The notes beneath the pieces were generated by a model, which worked only from the letters and a program-made list of their open reading frames with translations, had not been told where the DNA came from and did not search any database. DNA of 64,000 bases, from assembly GCA_036023115.1 (NCBI GenBank), contig JAYKKT010000088.1, positions 5,665,001 to 5,729,000 on the forward strand, given 5' to 3'. Source of the stretch: Brasenia schreberi (lineage: Eukaryota; Streptophyta; Magnoliopsida; Nymphaeales; Cabombaceae). Below are positions 17,811 to 24,378 of this stretch, one piece after another (position 1 is the stretch's first letter; every line of letters begins with the position of its first letter). The translations under genes and the position numbers were made by a program.

Positions 17811-19320
17811 ATGGGCTGTGTGAATGCTCTTCTTGGGCAGATTTTTCAACAGATGGAGAAGGTTAAATACATGAAGATTGAGTAGGATACAGTAAGGAAA
17901 GTTATGACTACTTTAGCAAATGCTATGAGCTTGATGATGACAACTCAATCAACTCTACCACTACCGAGTCCCGTAGAGTTTTATGCAAGTGTTGTGAGTA
18001 TGAGTGGAGCTACAACCTTTGTTCTCATCCATCATATGTCTTTCATGGACTTGACGTAGACAGATGGAGGAGTAGCCCACACAAAGAGAAATGATGGATC
18101 TAGTAGAGGTAGTAGAGCACCTAATCAACCTTTGAAATGTATGGATCAGAAGTGAGATAGTCAATCGGGTATGTCTTCAGGACAACAATCAAGTATTTCT
18201 TTAGGTGGCCAAAAAACTCCTCTAATACGTGGTTTGTTGAAGCAACATGGACCTTACTTTATTTGTCAAGAGCCACATTTGATGCAAGAGAGGTCGATGA
18301 TGGTGAAGAGAATCTTGAGGATCTTGGTAAGACTGGACCAGTTTTTTTATCACTTCTTGATTGTCATATAAATGAGAGTTGGGACACATCAACTAGACAT
18401 TTACATGGAGGCTTGGGTGGGATGATATGCTATTCATGCCTTGATTGATTTTAGGACAGCACATTCCTTGATATTGCACGCCATTGCATATTCTATGGGC
18501 TTGGTGGTCACGACTTCAGATCGTGAAGACAATAAATTTGACACCTAGTAGACTGGTGGGATTACATGAGCATGTTGATTTCAAGTTGGATGTTGGTTAG
18601 GGGAGCATGACTAAATGGTGATGGAGCTTGATTTATATCCTCTATTCTTGGGTATGAATTCTTGCTCTCCAATAAGTTGATGGTCATCCCACATCTTAGA
18701 GGAGTCATATTCATGAACAAGAGGCAACTAAGATTCATCCCTTACATGGATTTGAGTAGTATACCGGTTGATGAATCATGTACAATACTGATTATCATAC
18801 CTTGATTCAAGCTAGAAGGAGGCTTGTCATCTTGAAGATGTTGGTTTAAGGTGTGAGGACCACGATCGGTAGTACGAGGCCCAATTATAGGCGTAACAAC
18901 ATATTGGGGTGCTAGGCCCAACTAGGAGAAGTGACACATGGTGGAAGCATTATAGTGGGGTGGTTGTAGGGCCATGTGTGCTTATTAAAGGCAGGGTGCA
19001 TGGTGCACATACGTTGCAACATTGGGTACATGGCATGCTGGCCAGATGACCACTATACACGAGTGATCTTGGAGATACTACAATAGAGCAACTAATAGTT
19101 CAGCTTGGAGCCGACCAACTTGTGTAGCAGTGTAGATCAAATGGGGTCAATAGTTAGGTTGTTAAGGCTATAATCAATGTATCAAGTGCGTGATGGTACA
19201 TGGTGCATAGATGAGTGTCCTTGTGTGAGCATGCAATTGGAGGTGGATACCGACTCAATTGAGGGAACAACCATCATGGTGGAGTTCGCTTGTCAAGACC
19301 TCGAGGACAAGTTCTTGTAA
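17811..19320 (+). pseudogene. Gypsy polyprotein remnant (gag end, protease, pol C-terminus)
   Basis: Plus-strand traces of a gypsy element in several frames. Near 18420-18510 is a protease-like ALIDFRTAHSL...AYSMGLVV, where canonical copies have ALVDSGAsHSFI. A segment at 18680-18760 may be related to the protease-RT junction. The 3' end of pol is near 19270-19320, CQDLEDKFL then stop, the usual plant gypsy terminus. RT, RNase H and integrase are deleted. No part is functional. Confidence 0.45.
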
Positions 19321-19496
19321 TGAGAGTTCAACCATTAATAAAGAATCTACATTTAGAAAGTAAAGAAAAGTTTTTATTCTTCTTCCCTTCTATATCTATA
19401 CAATATGTGTATCACCCTAGAAAGCTCTATCGTCTAGAGATGAGTAGGTCAGTCCATGAGGCATCCCTATTCTACACAAGGGCATATTGATCATGA

Positions 19497-21886
19497 GCTA
19501 TTGGAGGGAAGTATAGATGTTCCTTGCTTAGTTATTCCACAACATGTGTTGAGGAGAATCATATTGAGATAATTGGGGGCAGTTGTCACCATCACCTAGT
19601 GCTTTTAGGGACCGTTTTCATAGATCTAGTAGAGGGGTAGTGACATATTATACCCTAAATCATGCCACCATCTCTAAACATATATAGAATAATCTTTGTT
19701 GGAAAAGCCTTTTTTCTCCCAATAGACCACGACCCGACACTCTACGTAGCTATAATTGCCCACTACCTGTGACCTCTTGGCCCACCCTTCTTTCAAACTA
19801 CACATGCACACCTATGCTCCGATTAAAAGCAAGAGGAATAATTTGATCTTTGCTTTCAAATGTGAAATATTTATTTGATGATTATTCTCTCTTATAATAG
19901 CTAAATGAGAGCTTAAATGAATAAGTCCTATCAAATAGAAATGAATCCAAATGGGTCGCTCTAGACCCAAACCAAATAACTCCTTAAATGATCCAAATGT
20001 TACCAAACTAAATCCAAATAACCTATAATCTTTAAACATCCTAACGTTGGTTACACATTACTATTTATTACATAATCAAAGCAAATACAAAAGATCTAAA
20101 CAAAACTACTCAAATGTGCCAATAGCTAAACTCTGGCACATGTGATGTATGTATGTGGAACATTCATACCTAGCATTGCAACATCTCTACTTCGACCAAG
20201 AGAAACCTCACCCTCAAAGTCCAAGAAGTCTACTATAGTATTGCTTTCATTGTTGAGTTGAGCTCCACTGCAAGTTGTATACTTTCAACCTCTAAAATGT
20301 CGACCAGTACCCATACATAAGAACACTCATATGTGTACCATGCGCCAACATCCACTAGATAAATTGACAATTGCCTCATATGTCCACCACGACGACCCTA
20401 CCACTAGGTCCCATCTAGCGTACGACATTATCAAAGTTGTCTGATCTCGAGACACATCATCGGTCTCTCTGTCACATCACTTCCAAGGCCTTTCATGCGC
20501 AACTATCATCCTACCAGCTCATTACATGCTCTGCACCATACTACAGGTGCATCACACACTCTACCTCTAGCATACTTACTCTCTTGCAACCACCCCACTA
20601 CAACTCATGCATCATATGTCACCGCCTCTGATTCAGCTTGGTACCCCAATCAATTACTACACCTGAAACAAATCTTCGACCTCACATAGATGGTCATAGT
20701 CCTCTCCCATGTTGAAAACCACCACCATATGGTCTAAACAAAGATCGGCTATCCTTGCCATGGATCCTCTTTAGCCACAGTCTAGTGCTAAAGAAGAAGG
20801 CAACATACGTATCCAAGATGGTCTTCTATAAACTACACTATGGAAAAAAGCCTCCATACTCATCATCCATCCATACTAGTCCATTGAGATGCAGTGCCAC
20901 CAATGTCTTTACTGTAGGTAAGAAATCATACTTTGAGCCTCCTCAACCACAAAGATAATCCTTGAATTTGGCTCATCCGAAATCATATTAAAAAACTCAC
21001 AAGGTACCGTTTAAGTTGTATCATGATCATTGCAAGACTATCCTTGGGCTCCTCTCTATTGGGACATCCATCGTATCTGCACCAAGATAGTGCTTAGAAG
21101 TGTCCATGAGAAAACTCATATTAGTGCAACTATGTGAAGTGTCACCATTGTGTAGTTCTATGAGAAAGGTATGTCGTTTCCTATAAACTCGGTACCAGAA
21201 CATGGAATCAGTTTGATGGACAGATCTCCTCTTCCAGTTTCTACCATAACTTAGCTAGGTTCCACCATTTCCTAGGTTGCTCTACCCTGTGTAGAACTAC
21301 CTATAACTATCACATGAACCAACATGTCGTCACAATTGGTTGGATGCGGTAGAACATGAAATTATTGAAACAGACACTTTTGAAGGTCCACCTTTTGTCA
21401 ATACACACATCCCAAAGGCTCTAATACAAAGTTATTACCATCCCTCTACTAGGTCCATGAAAATAGTCTGTAGAAATGCCTAGTGATAGCGACAATTACA
21501 CCTGATTGCCTCAATCCATTTCTTCTCAACATGCAATGAAATAATCAAGCATGGAACAACCACTCTTCCCTCCAATAGCCCATCATTAGCACACCCTTTG
21601 TGTGGTTAGGAATCCCCAAAGATCAACCTACTCAACTCTAGTCGATGGAGCTCTCTCTAATGTGTACACATATGCATGTAGAGATGAAAGGAGAAGAACT
21701 TACCTTGTCTCTCCAAATATAGAATCTCTATTAATGGTTGAACTCTCATTACTGGAGCTCAATGAGAGCTTAAATATCAAAACCCTAATCAATAAAAATG
21801 GATTCTAATGAATCATTCCAAATTGAAACCAAATGAACCTAAACTATACCCAAATAAGCAACACCTTAATACTAGCCATATATAAC
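19497..21886. repeat. Inverted gypsy-end repeats flanking decayed sequence
   Basis: Sequence at 19497-19640 (TTGGAGGGAAG..., GTTGTCACCATCACCTAGTG, GATCTAGTAGAGGG) recurs as its reverse complement at about 21580-21430. This shows that the 3' end of one gypsy copy is present in both orientations about 2 kb apart. Sequence near 19890-20000 also resembles 21750-21870 (AATGAGAGCTTAAAT). The middle (20150-21430) has no recognisable gene. Confidence 0.5.
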
Positions 21887-22157
21887 TGTTGAAGAATATG
21901 AGTTTAGAGTCAGTTTTAGTACATTTTATGTCTTAGGATAGTAAATTTGATATTTTAGGTATTATTGTAATTGTCTGAAGTTATAAGGGTATTTTGATAA
22001 TTTTCTACACTAGGGGGTATTTTGGTTATTTTATATTTTACAATTTTTTATATAAAGACTGATAGGTTGTACTCCTTCGATCTCCATGCTGTTCTCCTTC
22101 ATCTTTTGTTCATGTTTCTTATTATTGATTATCCGTTGTGCAACCACGTTTTCAACA
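21887..22157 (+). repeat. 5' LTR (271 bp)
   Basis: TG...CA ends. It aligns with 24036-24373 but lacks about 66 bp (a T/GA-rich stretch with a GGGGGGG run) that the 3' LTR has at about 24220-24285. Several point differences imply an insertion that is not recent. Confidence 0.9.
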
Positions 22158-22170
22158 TGGTATCAGAGCC
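22158..22170 (+). other. Primer binding site (initiator Met tRNA)
   Basis: TGGTATCAGAGCC directly after the LTR, the exact classical plant copia PBS. Confidence 0.9.
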
Positions 22171-22207
22171 TATTAACGGATATTGGCAGTGATGGTGCGG
22201 TGAGCAT

Positions 22208-23134
22208 GGACACAAGGTGGTGGTTTTAACGCATGCATATGGTTTGCGCTCTGGGGTGCGATATATGATTGGTGGATTGAAGGTTTATTATATACCTTGG
22301 AAGCCATTTACGATGTAGAGCACCTTACCAACATTTTATAAAACGTTTCCGATTATAAGAACAATTCTCATTCGTGAGGAGATATCTTTAGTACATGGGC
22401 ATCAAGCATTTTCAACTCTTTGTCATGAGGCCTTCATGCATGCAAGAATGATGGGTTACAAAGTTATATTCACTGATCATTCTCTTTGTGGGTTTGTTGA
22501 TATTGGGAGCATTCACATGAATAAAGTGTTGCAATTTACTTTAGCAGATGTTAGCCAAGCTATATGTGTCTCTCATACAAGCAAGGAAAACATAGTATTG
22601 CACTCATGTTTGCCTCCTAAAAAGGTGCTTTTGGTATCGAATGTAGTGGACACCACTATGTTCAAGCCTGCTTTGGAGAAATCAACGATGACAAAATTAT
22701 TATCATCGTCATTAACAGATTGGTGTATCGAAAGGGTGTGAATCTGCTGGTCGAGGTTATACCTGAAGTTTGCAGCTTGCACCCTAATGTTAACTTTATA
22801 ATTGGAGGGGATGGACCTAAGCGAGTGCGTTTGTAGGAGATGAGGGAGAAACATTGTTTACAAGATAGAGTTGAAATGTTGGGAGCAGTTCCACATGCAC
22901 AAGTAAGATCTGTGCTCATCCGTGGCCACATTTTTCGTAAATAGTTTCCTTATTAAGGCTTTCTGCATAGCAATTCTAGAAGCTGCTAGTTGTGGTTTGC
23001 TTACTGTCAACACGAGAGTTGGGGGTATTCCAGAGGTTCTGTTAGAGGACATGATTGTGCTTGCAGATCCCATACCAAGCAACATGGTACAAGCAATTAG
23101 TGAAGCAATCATCAACTTTTGTAATCTAAAGTGA
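22208..23134 (+). pseudogene. PIGA: Captured PIG-A (GPI GlcNAc-transferase catalytic subunit) cDNA fragment
   Basis: Recognised as the plant homologue of PIG-A/Gpi3 (SETH2 in Arabidopsis), the GT4 glycosyltransferase that adds GlcNAc to phosphatidylinositol at the ER. Visible blocks in order: [12 protein letters not shown]...RSGVRYM (22208), [79 protein letters not shown], then after a frameshift near 22690 [47 protein letters not shown], and after another near 22935 AFCIAILEAASCGLL and TRVGGIPEV. The EX7E motif reads K-AFCIAIL-E, so its first Glu is lost. There are at least two stop codons. Both ends of the protein are absent. Coding blocks run without intron-sized gaps, so the source was probably spliced RNA. 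Confidence 0.9.
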
Positions 23135-23184
23135 TGCACAACAACTGTTTGACAAAATATCTAAGAAGAGTTGATTTACCTACA

Positions 23185-23345
23185 CATCAAGTGTTAGATG
23201 AAATGTCCAAGAGAAATATTCAACTGCACATCAAGTGTTCGATGAAATGTCTAAGAGAGATGTTTACCTGCATATCAAGTGTTTGTAGAAATGCTCAAAA
23301 AGAGATGTTTACCTGAGTATCAAGTGTTTGAAGAAATGTCTAAGA
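23185..23345. repeat. 44-bp minisatellite, about four units
   Basis: ATCAAGTG recurs at 23186, 23230, 23274 and 23319 (period 44, 44, 45) with GAAATGTCTAAGAGAGA in each unit. It lies directly after the PIG-A fragment and has no coding signature. Confidence 0.85.
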
Positions 23346-23490
23346 GGGATAAAAAAATTTAAGAAAATAGTAAAGAAGAGATTAATACGTGATTAATGTC
23401 TCCATTGGAAAAATAACATGAAGAAAGTTTATAGAAAAGAGATTATATTAAAGATTGCAGTTATGAGTACTGAAGAATTTTTTTTTATGC

Positions 23491-23930
23491 AGCCAAAGAT
23501 GCTGCTTGAGATAATTAGCCAAGAAGACTAAGTTTATATTGCAGCCAGAAATGCTTCTTGAGATGATCAACCAGGAACGTGGAGTTGATATTGCAGTCAG
23601 AGATGCTGCTTGAGATGGTCAGCTAGGAAGGCTGAGTTGATATTGCAGTCATAGATGTTGCTTAAGATAATCAGCCAAAAAGGCTGAGTTGATATTGCAG
23701 CCAGAGATGATGCTTGAGATGAACAGCCAGGATAGCTGAGTTGATGTTGTAGCCAGAGATGCTACTTGAAATGATTAGCTAGGAAGGTTGGGTTGAAGAT
23801 GTTGTAGCTAGAGATGCTGCTTGAGATGATCAGCTAAGAAGGCTGGGTTGAAGATGTTGCAGCCAGAGATGCAGCTTGAGATGATCAGCAAGGAAGACTA
23901 GGTTGAAGATGTTGCAACCAAAGAAGGTTC
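23491..23930. repeat. 52-bp minisatellite expanding to 55 bp, about nine units
   Basis: The motif AGCCAGAGATGCTGCTTGAG recurs with period 52 at 23491, 23543, 23595, 23647, 23699 and 23751, then with period 55 at 23806, 23861 and 23916. The longer units carry GAAGATGTTG in place of GATATTG. Stops occur in all frames read. The array fills the 3' half of the element. Confidence 0.9.
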
Positions 23931-24027
23931 TGAAGATCAGATCAGTCATGAAAACAGATGAAGAATGTTGCAGACAGATGAAGAATTTTTGGCAAGTTTG
24001 GAGTTCGAAGTATCTCACTCCCAACTT

Positions 24028-24035
24028 AAGGGGGG
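24028..24035 (+). other. Polypurine tract
   Basis: AAGGGGGG immediately before the 3' LTR start, consistent with plus-strand priming. Confidence 0.85.
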
Positions 24036-24373
24036 TGTTGAAGAATATGAGTTTAGAGTTATTTTTAGTACATTTGATGTCTTAGGACAGTAAATTTGAT
24101 ATTTTAGGTATTATTATAATTGTTCAAAGTCATAAGAGCGTTTTAGTAATTTTCTATACTAGGGGTATTTTGGTTATTTTATATTTTACAGCTTCTTATA
24201 TAAGGGCTGATAGGTTGTATTAGGGTTTAAGTTGCTAAGATTAAGAAAGAGAGAGAGGGGGGGCGGCCTCCATTGGAGGTCTGCCCCCTCCTCCGATCTC
24301 TATGTTTTTCTCCTTCATCTTTTGTTCATGTTTCTTATTATTGATTATTAGTTGAGCAACCACGTTTCCAACA
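24036..24373 (+). repeat. 3' LTR (338 bp)
   Basis: Longer partner of 21887-22157. It ends TTTCCAACA at 24373 and is followed by the ATAAC target duplication. Confidence 0.9.
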
Positions 24374-24378
24374 ATAAC

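Follow-up and report, generated by a model that had tools for sequence, protein, structure and literature searches.

A PIG-A-carrying LTR element of Brasenia schreberi, probably one of a non-autonomous family that acquires host mRNAs by template switching

Studies of how plant retroelements pick up mRNA have dealt with single cases, Bs1 among them, or drawn up genome-wide lists. TRIMs are defined by their very small size, and Pack-MULEs are one element type that samples many host genes into chimeras. In passages of PMC13317346, Bs1 of maize is described as an LTR element with fragments of three host genes. Gene-bearing TRIMs, for example GmaRetroS15 of soybean, appear in excerpts of PMC4717578 as small non-autonomous elements with exon-only fragments of up to three genes and 5-nt duplications; 30 elements in 7 subfamilies, of 1172-1449 bp, are reported, and the same excerpts treat Pack-MULEs as DNA transposons whose cargo has introns. 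For LTR retrotransposons of pepper, rice and sorghum, PMC5664825 and PMC3726574 report host genes inside them by the hundreds to thousands; in pepper, NLR copies lie mostly in non-autonomous LTR elements (PMC5664825).

Positions 21887-24373 (2487 bp) of the window, by which we mean the whole stretch of 64,000 nucleotides analysed, hold a complete non-autonomous LTR element (Table 1). Paired LTRs, TG...CA termini, a short duplication that is exact on both sides, a PBS, which we take to be of the initiator-Met tRNA type, and a purine tract together mark it as an LTR retrotransposon; neither gag nor pol was found in the two ORFs scanned, as befits a non-autonomous element. The two LTRs are the same at 242 of 270 aligned bases, and 23 of the 28 mismatches are transitions. 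A first-pass annotation of the sequence had described a complete small LTR element with PBS, purine tract and ATAAC, a description that alignment and the positions of all parts bore out. It had also named, as grounds for doubt, LTRs that belong to two unrelated insertions: there was one insertion, with LTRs of the same family, a shared ATAAC, and PBS and purine tract in place. The tandem repeats of 44 and 52 nt in the 3' block, a signature of the family that goes unmentioned in the first-pass annotation, span 23162-23937. Read by eye, the 44-nt repeat (window 23134-23350) translates into a HQVFDEMSKRDVYL-like sequence that recalls a PPR motif.

Table 1. Parts of the PIG-A-carrying element, in window positions.
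Feature	Positions	Strand
Target-site duplication ATAAC, 5' copy	21882..21886	.
5' LTR, 271 nt; a block of ~68 nt is absent relative to the 3' LTR	21887..22157	+
PBS TGGTATCAGAGC, directly after the 5' LTR	22158..22169	+
Family leader, ending in TGAGCxTGGA, similar to the end of PIG-A exon 1	22170..22210	+
Tail of PIG-A exon 1; microhomology makes it overlap the leader	22201..22216	+
PIG-A exon 2, with a 1-nt deletion and an in-frame stop	22217..22788	+
PIG-A exon 3, fused without intron to exons 2 and 4	22789..22944	+
PIG-A exon 4	22945..23035	+
PIG-A exon 5, broken off within the exon	23036..23110	+
Short filler between PIG-A and the family 3' block	23111..23133	+
Constant 3' block, first part, with tandem repeats of 44 nt from 23162 on	23134..23350	+
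Constant 3' block, 52- to 55-nt tandem repeats	23488..23937	+
Polypurine tract AAGGGGGG, adjoining the 3' LTR	24028..24035	+
3' LTR, 338 nt	24036..24373	+
Target-site duplication ATAAC, 3' copy	24374..24378	.

The LTRs differ by a K2P divergence of 0.114. At a substitution rate of 1.3e-8, used in PMC5664825, the insertion would be ~4.4 million years old, a figure that deamination inflates and whose rate may not fit this plant. When the flanks of the element were searched in the genome, they aligned in order to one old repeat copy (C88:5325600-5326450), with low identity and with unaligned bases at the insertion point, and point only faintly to this place as a possible empty site. The upstream flank (window 21187-21891) is repetitive: the scored candidates (40 of 196) match in 40/40 cases, others at 69-76%, and one match is inverted and lies ~2 kb off, within the window (~19317-19636).

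The PIG-A segment (~22201-23110, ~910 nt) lies in element sense and starts ~31 nt past the PBS; the first-pass annotation had proposed intronless PIG-A content of ~0.93 kb with a start ~40 nt after the PBS. In the genome searched (1.055 Gb, 92 contigs), both genomic PIG-A loci, on contigs C73 and C91, align to the intron-free segment exon by exon only. Of exon 1 only the final 16 nt are present, at the start of the segment, which stops inside exon 5; its four exon-exon junctions (1/2, 2/3, 3/4 and 4/5) coincide with splice sites of the C73 gene. Because all four match splice sites of a PIG-A gene in the same genome, the source was a spliced mRNA, as the first-pass annotation had suggested, and the alignment to genomic PIG-A that it had recommended confirmed the junctions and the absence of introns. 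Over 909 bases the segment is 94.1% identical to the C73 gene; over 906 bases it is 92.3% identical to the C91 locus, which may be a decaying duplicate.

Over 341 residues, the product of the host gene is 91% identical to a Victoria cruziana protein with PF08288, and PIG-A-named proteins from many plants are among its best 120 matches. A window ORF fell just below the PF08288 cut-off (9.8e-6, 26.6 bits against 27 bits), NCBIfam gave weak glycosyltransferase-type matches only, and a PDB search with PIG-A exon 2 as query returned no match. Compared with the gene, the window segment has in-frame stops and two 1-nt indels, and therefore encodes no PIG-A protein. Against the C73 gene, C>T or G>A changes were counted at 19/69 CHG, 6/40 CG and 14/292 CHH sites of the window copy and A>G or T>C changes at 6/508; the same classes in the copy on C70 gave 7/42 CHG, 4/36 CG, 8/199 CHH and 4/361. 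In this unpolarised comparison with the present C73 gene, the concentration of the window changes at methylation-prone sites is what a silenced transposon would be expected to show. The C73 gene is open across the exons read. At the second locus (L011, C91:6082500-6091500), exon 2 is longer by 1 nt and the spliced reading shifts frame.

Scoring of the candidates (35/35) yielded seven intronless PIG-A places in the genome, the window included. Four are in sense, those of the window, C70 (L009), C76 (L041) and C68 (L037), and have a common start joint and differing ends. An element with DnaJ cargo and without PIG-A (L016) has the same leader as the window element, running to GGTGAGCGTGGA, and PIG-A exon 1 ends in TTGAGCTTGGACACAAG: leader and PIG-A meet in a 10-nt near-match, TGAGCxTGGA. 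The leader end is matched as well at only 1 of the 1803 positions of the PIG-A gene region, introns included. L037 keeps the leader G in the joint motif, but the sequence upstream is a U-box ARM gene. This element is a three-gene chimera, with (in query positions) the ARM gene at 19-746, PIG-A at 742-968 and a PPR-like piece at 967-1180, the ARM assignment coming from Pfam and the PPR one being made by eye; the PPR piece has six further genomic places at 91-98%, genes and elements unsorted. We infer that the capture of PIG-A preceded that of the ARM gene, which entered at TGAGC. In L009, which lies in reverse orientation, a 5' LTR and leader are present at ~2944, beside a reading that resembles copia (WHKRLG, by eye); a 3' LTR was searched for there and none was found.

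The three other places, on C92, C91 and C42 (L035, L036 and L040), carry spliced PIG-A in antisense and belong to a diverged subfamily. They probably go back to a separate event, and simple switching onto mRNA is no explanation for them. Transcription of these copies, should it occur, would yield antisense PIG-A RNA. By eye, L035 has HSP90-like and PPR-like readings too.

PIG-A is one cargo of many. The first-pass annotation had asked whether further copies share the PIG-A segment; they do, yet it had underestimated the scope, as the family carries many other genes. Members share LTRs, leader and the 3' block of 44-/52-nt repeats, but pieces of different host genes fill their middles, among them fibrillarin, HSP90, cellulose synthase, starch synthase, UBA1 and PPR, and several elements fuse two or three genes. 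Twenty regions, the top matches in the genome, were taken blind to cargo; besides both PIG-A genes and the copy on C70 they comprise 17 further relatives. The middle could be delimited in 16 of the 17, L025 being dropped for want of a detected 5' LTR, and L022 has no middle, which leaves 15. Beyond leader and repeats these show no mutual similarity longer than 60 nt, with the exception of L027 and L028 (~190 nt after the LTR). Host-gene domains were recognised by Pfam in 12 of the 15, 11 above cut-off and a PPR in L024 below it: kinase (with Pcc1, from a second gene), cellulose synthase zinc finger, DnaJ, APH, pyruvate kinase, SRP54, fibrillarin and PfkB, with PPR in four. A RanBP zinc finger and PB1 were also matched among the middles, without a named member; for L012, L015 and L020, Pfam gave no assignable host domain.

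The cargo lies mostly in sense. Sense ORFs of the middles (94 of at least 50 aa) match 18 Pfam models, among which some overlap and one is a LINE model; antisense ORFs (110) match 2, one of them strongly (Aa_trans, 2.1e-13). The 144 flank ORFs, taken from both strands, match 7 models, all PPR or transposon, in a control in which the L013 flank is shorter than the L013 middle and the L026 flank overlaps a neighbouring family element. The only gag/pol-type match among the 94 sense ORFs of the 15 middles was LINE-type RVT_1, in 3 members. At 3944-5546 of L017, LINE-type reverse-transcriptase-like readings were seen by eye next to the host gene fragment.

Two further samples were taken, both blind to cargo. 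The first four forward-strand new rows from 40 leader matches had host domains in 4/4: AMP-binding with glycosyl hydrolase 3, ribophorin I, RNase PH with rhodanese, and Ezh2 MCSS. Element L045 has the last of these, in a fragment similar to a Polycomb EZH2-type gene, with a match below cut-off (Ezh2_MCSS, 1.3e-5, 25.3 bits against 27). The purine-tract motif TCTCACTCCCAACTTRAGGGGG occurs at 1851 genomic places with up to 1 mismatch (reversed control, 0), which is not a family count: copia elements are included and diverged members missed. Every eighth among ~100 sites listed, all exact and on low-numbered contigs, was read over 2.4 kb upstream, and host domains were present at 6/12 (UBA1, starch synthase, HSP90, RRM, ribosomal S10, and a PPR below cut-off), a copia element at 1/12 and nothing recognisable at 5/12. 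Exact 5-nt duplications were found in 13 of 20 loci with at least two LTR-like copies, the window included, the 3' end being placed 10-11 nt from the prediction in 5 of the 13; the remaining 7/20 had no accepted duplication, and the one in L009, which needs shifted ends, was left uncounted.

The spliced state of the cargo extends beyond PIG-A. In L027, fibrillarin sequence is continuous across six exons of the C72 gene and is followed by two apparent exons of a second gene. The HSP90 cargo of L054 is spliced, with 3' exons that precede 5' exons and re-entry within an exon; eight more intronless stretches match it at 94-97% (two of them at C47, the others on C90, C52, C73, C81, C71 and C48), as if an HSP90-bearing lineage had multiplied. 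In L044, three genes follow the leader, the first with its segments in reversed order, the second represented by two exons and the third by three; a sister element that is 96% identical lies at C80. Introns were absent in 4/4 intron-containing cargo cases tested, namely PIG-A, fibrillarin, HSP90 and the L044 genes; PPR, the commonest cargo family, gives no splice test, because PPR genes are often intronless. Back-splicing or circular RNA was tried as a source of the reversed order in the L054 HSP90 and the L044 first gene and was rejected, re-entry lying inside exons in the fetched gene pieces; two switches on one mRNA would fit that order better.

It is very likely that the window element belongs to a large non-autonomous LTR family that repeatedly acquires host mRNAs by template switching of reverse transcriptase. 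Repeated switching is what the 10-nt near-match at the PIG-A joint points to, together with the later entry of a second gene at that joint in one descendant. A helper would package element RNA together with host mRNAs. During minus-strand synthesis, reverse transcriptase would jump from element RNA into PIG-A mRNA within exon 5, and return to the leader where the end of exon 1 nearly matches it (TGAGCxTGGA). The resulting chimera would then be integrated as cDNA and later retrotransposed, and individual copies may shed or add cargo through further switches. Such switching is read from the junctions; cargo that is mostly in sense and layered or chimeric (L037, L044, L054) speaks for it. Against it stand the antisense cargo (the three PIG-A places and the Aa_trans ORF), for which simple switching gives no explanation, and the lack of an assignable host domain in 3/15 middles and in 5/12 purine-tract samples.

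Spliced sense cargo would likewise be the outcome of read-through, if an element in or near PIG-A had given a chimeric transcript that was spliced and then retrotransposed, and the first-pass annotation had offered read-through and template switching side by side. The latter is favoured because PIG-A breaks off inside an exon at one end, and at the other only 16 nt of exon 1 are retained, which meet the leader in a 10-nt near-match. Read-through is unlikely, since element sequence encloses the cargo on both sides, genes from different contigs meet in one element, segments of one gene stand in reversed order, and no element sequence besides the PIG-A exons was found in the 9-kb PIG-A loci (L010, L011). 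The same spliced structure would be left by a LINE-type processed PIG-A pseudogene that already existed and was flanked by chance by LTRs of separate insertions. We hold this to be extremely improbable: the LTRs are of the same family, with one shared duplication and with PBS and purine tract directly at them; PIG-A has LTRs on both sides and no poly(A) at its end, which lies inside exon 5; and the elements at C70 and C76 have the same leader-PIG-A joint. Capture at the DNA level in the style of Pack-MULEs or Helitrons, with introns lost afterwards, has in its favour the multi-gene mosaic cargo described for such elements, but the absence of introns from all four cases tested, the LTR ends and the 5-nt duplications leave it a barely credible alternative. 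Both of these last proposals were rejected, on the shared joint and LTR signals for the pseudogene and on spliced cargo with LTR ends for DNA-level capture.

The family was probably moved by a helper of copia type. A site on C22 (L047, L058, L059) matches Pol_BBD (6.1e-13) and, below their cut-offs, gag_3 (0.00028) and RVT_2 (6.8e-5), and has a reading that by eye resembles copia RNase H. It resembles the family in the purine-tract region (49 nt, 90%) and in its LTR (~70% alike over ~180 nt); its 5' LTR was not found within the stretch read. A stronger RVT_2 piece in L058 sits before gag and probably belongs to another element. The C22 site is a candidate, no more, for a relative of the helper. 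A tentative and rather doubtful extension is that capture sustains the family, whose own sequence would have shrunk to ends, leader and repeat-bearing 3' block, with helper particles that package cellular mRNA freely and most progeny gaining fragments. The family would then be an ongoing exon shuffler, with hundreds of multi-gene chimeras in one plant genome, and the 3' block or the leader could be a packaging or switching signal. Possibly the constant 3' block, too, goes back to a gene piece that was captured long ago and became tandem.

A family of many members with constant ends and changing cargo would make junctions, microhomologies, orientation, mRNA choice and the order of events countable in one system, and is a natural record of the uptake of host messages by retroelements. 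It is also a warning for annotation: captured fragments can inflate gene counts and mimic retrogenes. In the open-access literature, most subscription papers lying outside it, we found no PIG-A-carrying element, in agreement with the first-pass annotation, and no family with such frequent, changing and layered cargo, which is not proof of absence.

The window element fits a known kind, that of LTR elements with gene fragments (Bs1, gene-bearing TRIMs). With Pack-MULEs the family shares a similar working, but it has LTRs and spliced cargo and is therefore not of that kind; among the repeat pairs found, none is an inverted repeat at the ends of the window element. In size it lies outside the TRIMs, at 2487 bp for the window element and 1314-4769 bp for 12 others with an exact duplication. 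GmaRetroS15-type elements (PMC4717578) are likewise small and non-autonomous, with exon-only fragments, up to three genes and 5-nt duplications, whereas the present family (1314-4769 bp in 13 elements) has a repeat-bearing 3' block and host domains in 12/15 middles. The surveys of pepper, rice and sorghum, in the sections cited, found genes across many elements, with a focus on NLRs in PMC5664825; here one family carries short, often chimeric fragments of many gene classes. Bs1 is likewise an LTR element with host gene fragments (PMC13317346), and exon-only fragments of PIG-A, fibrillarin, HSP90 and the L044 genes lie inside LTRs as in a gene-transducing element of that type. Bs1, however, is one element with three transductions in that account, whereas here different genes are spread over many members of one family, and it can be worked out which of two captures came first.
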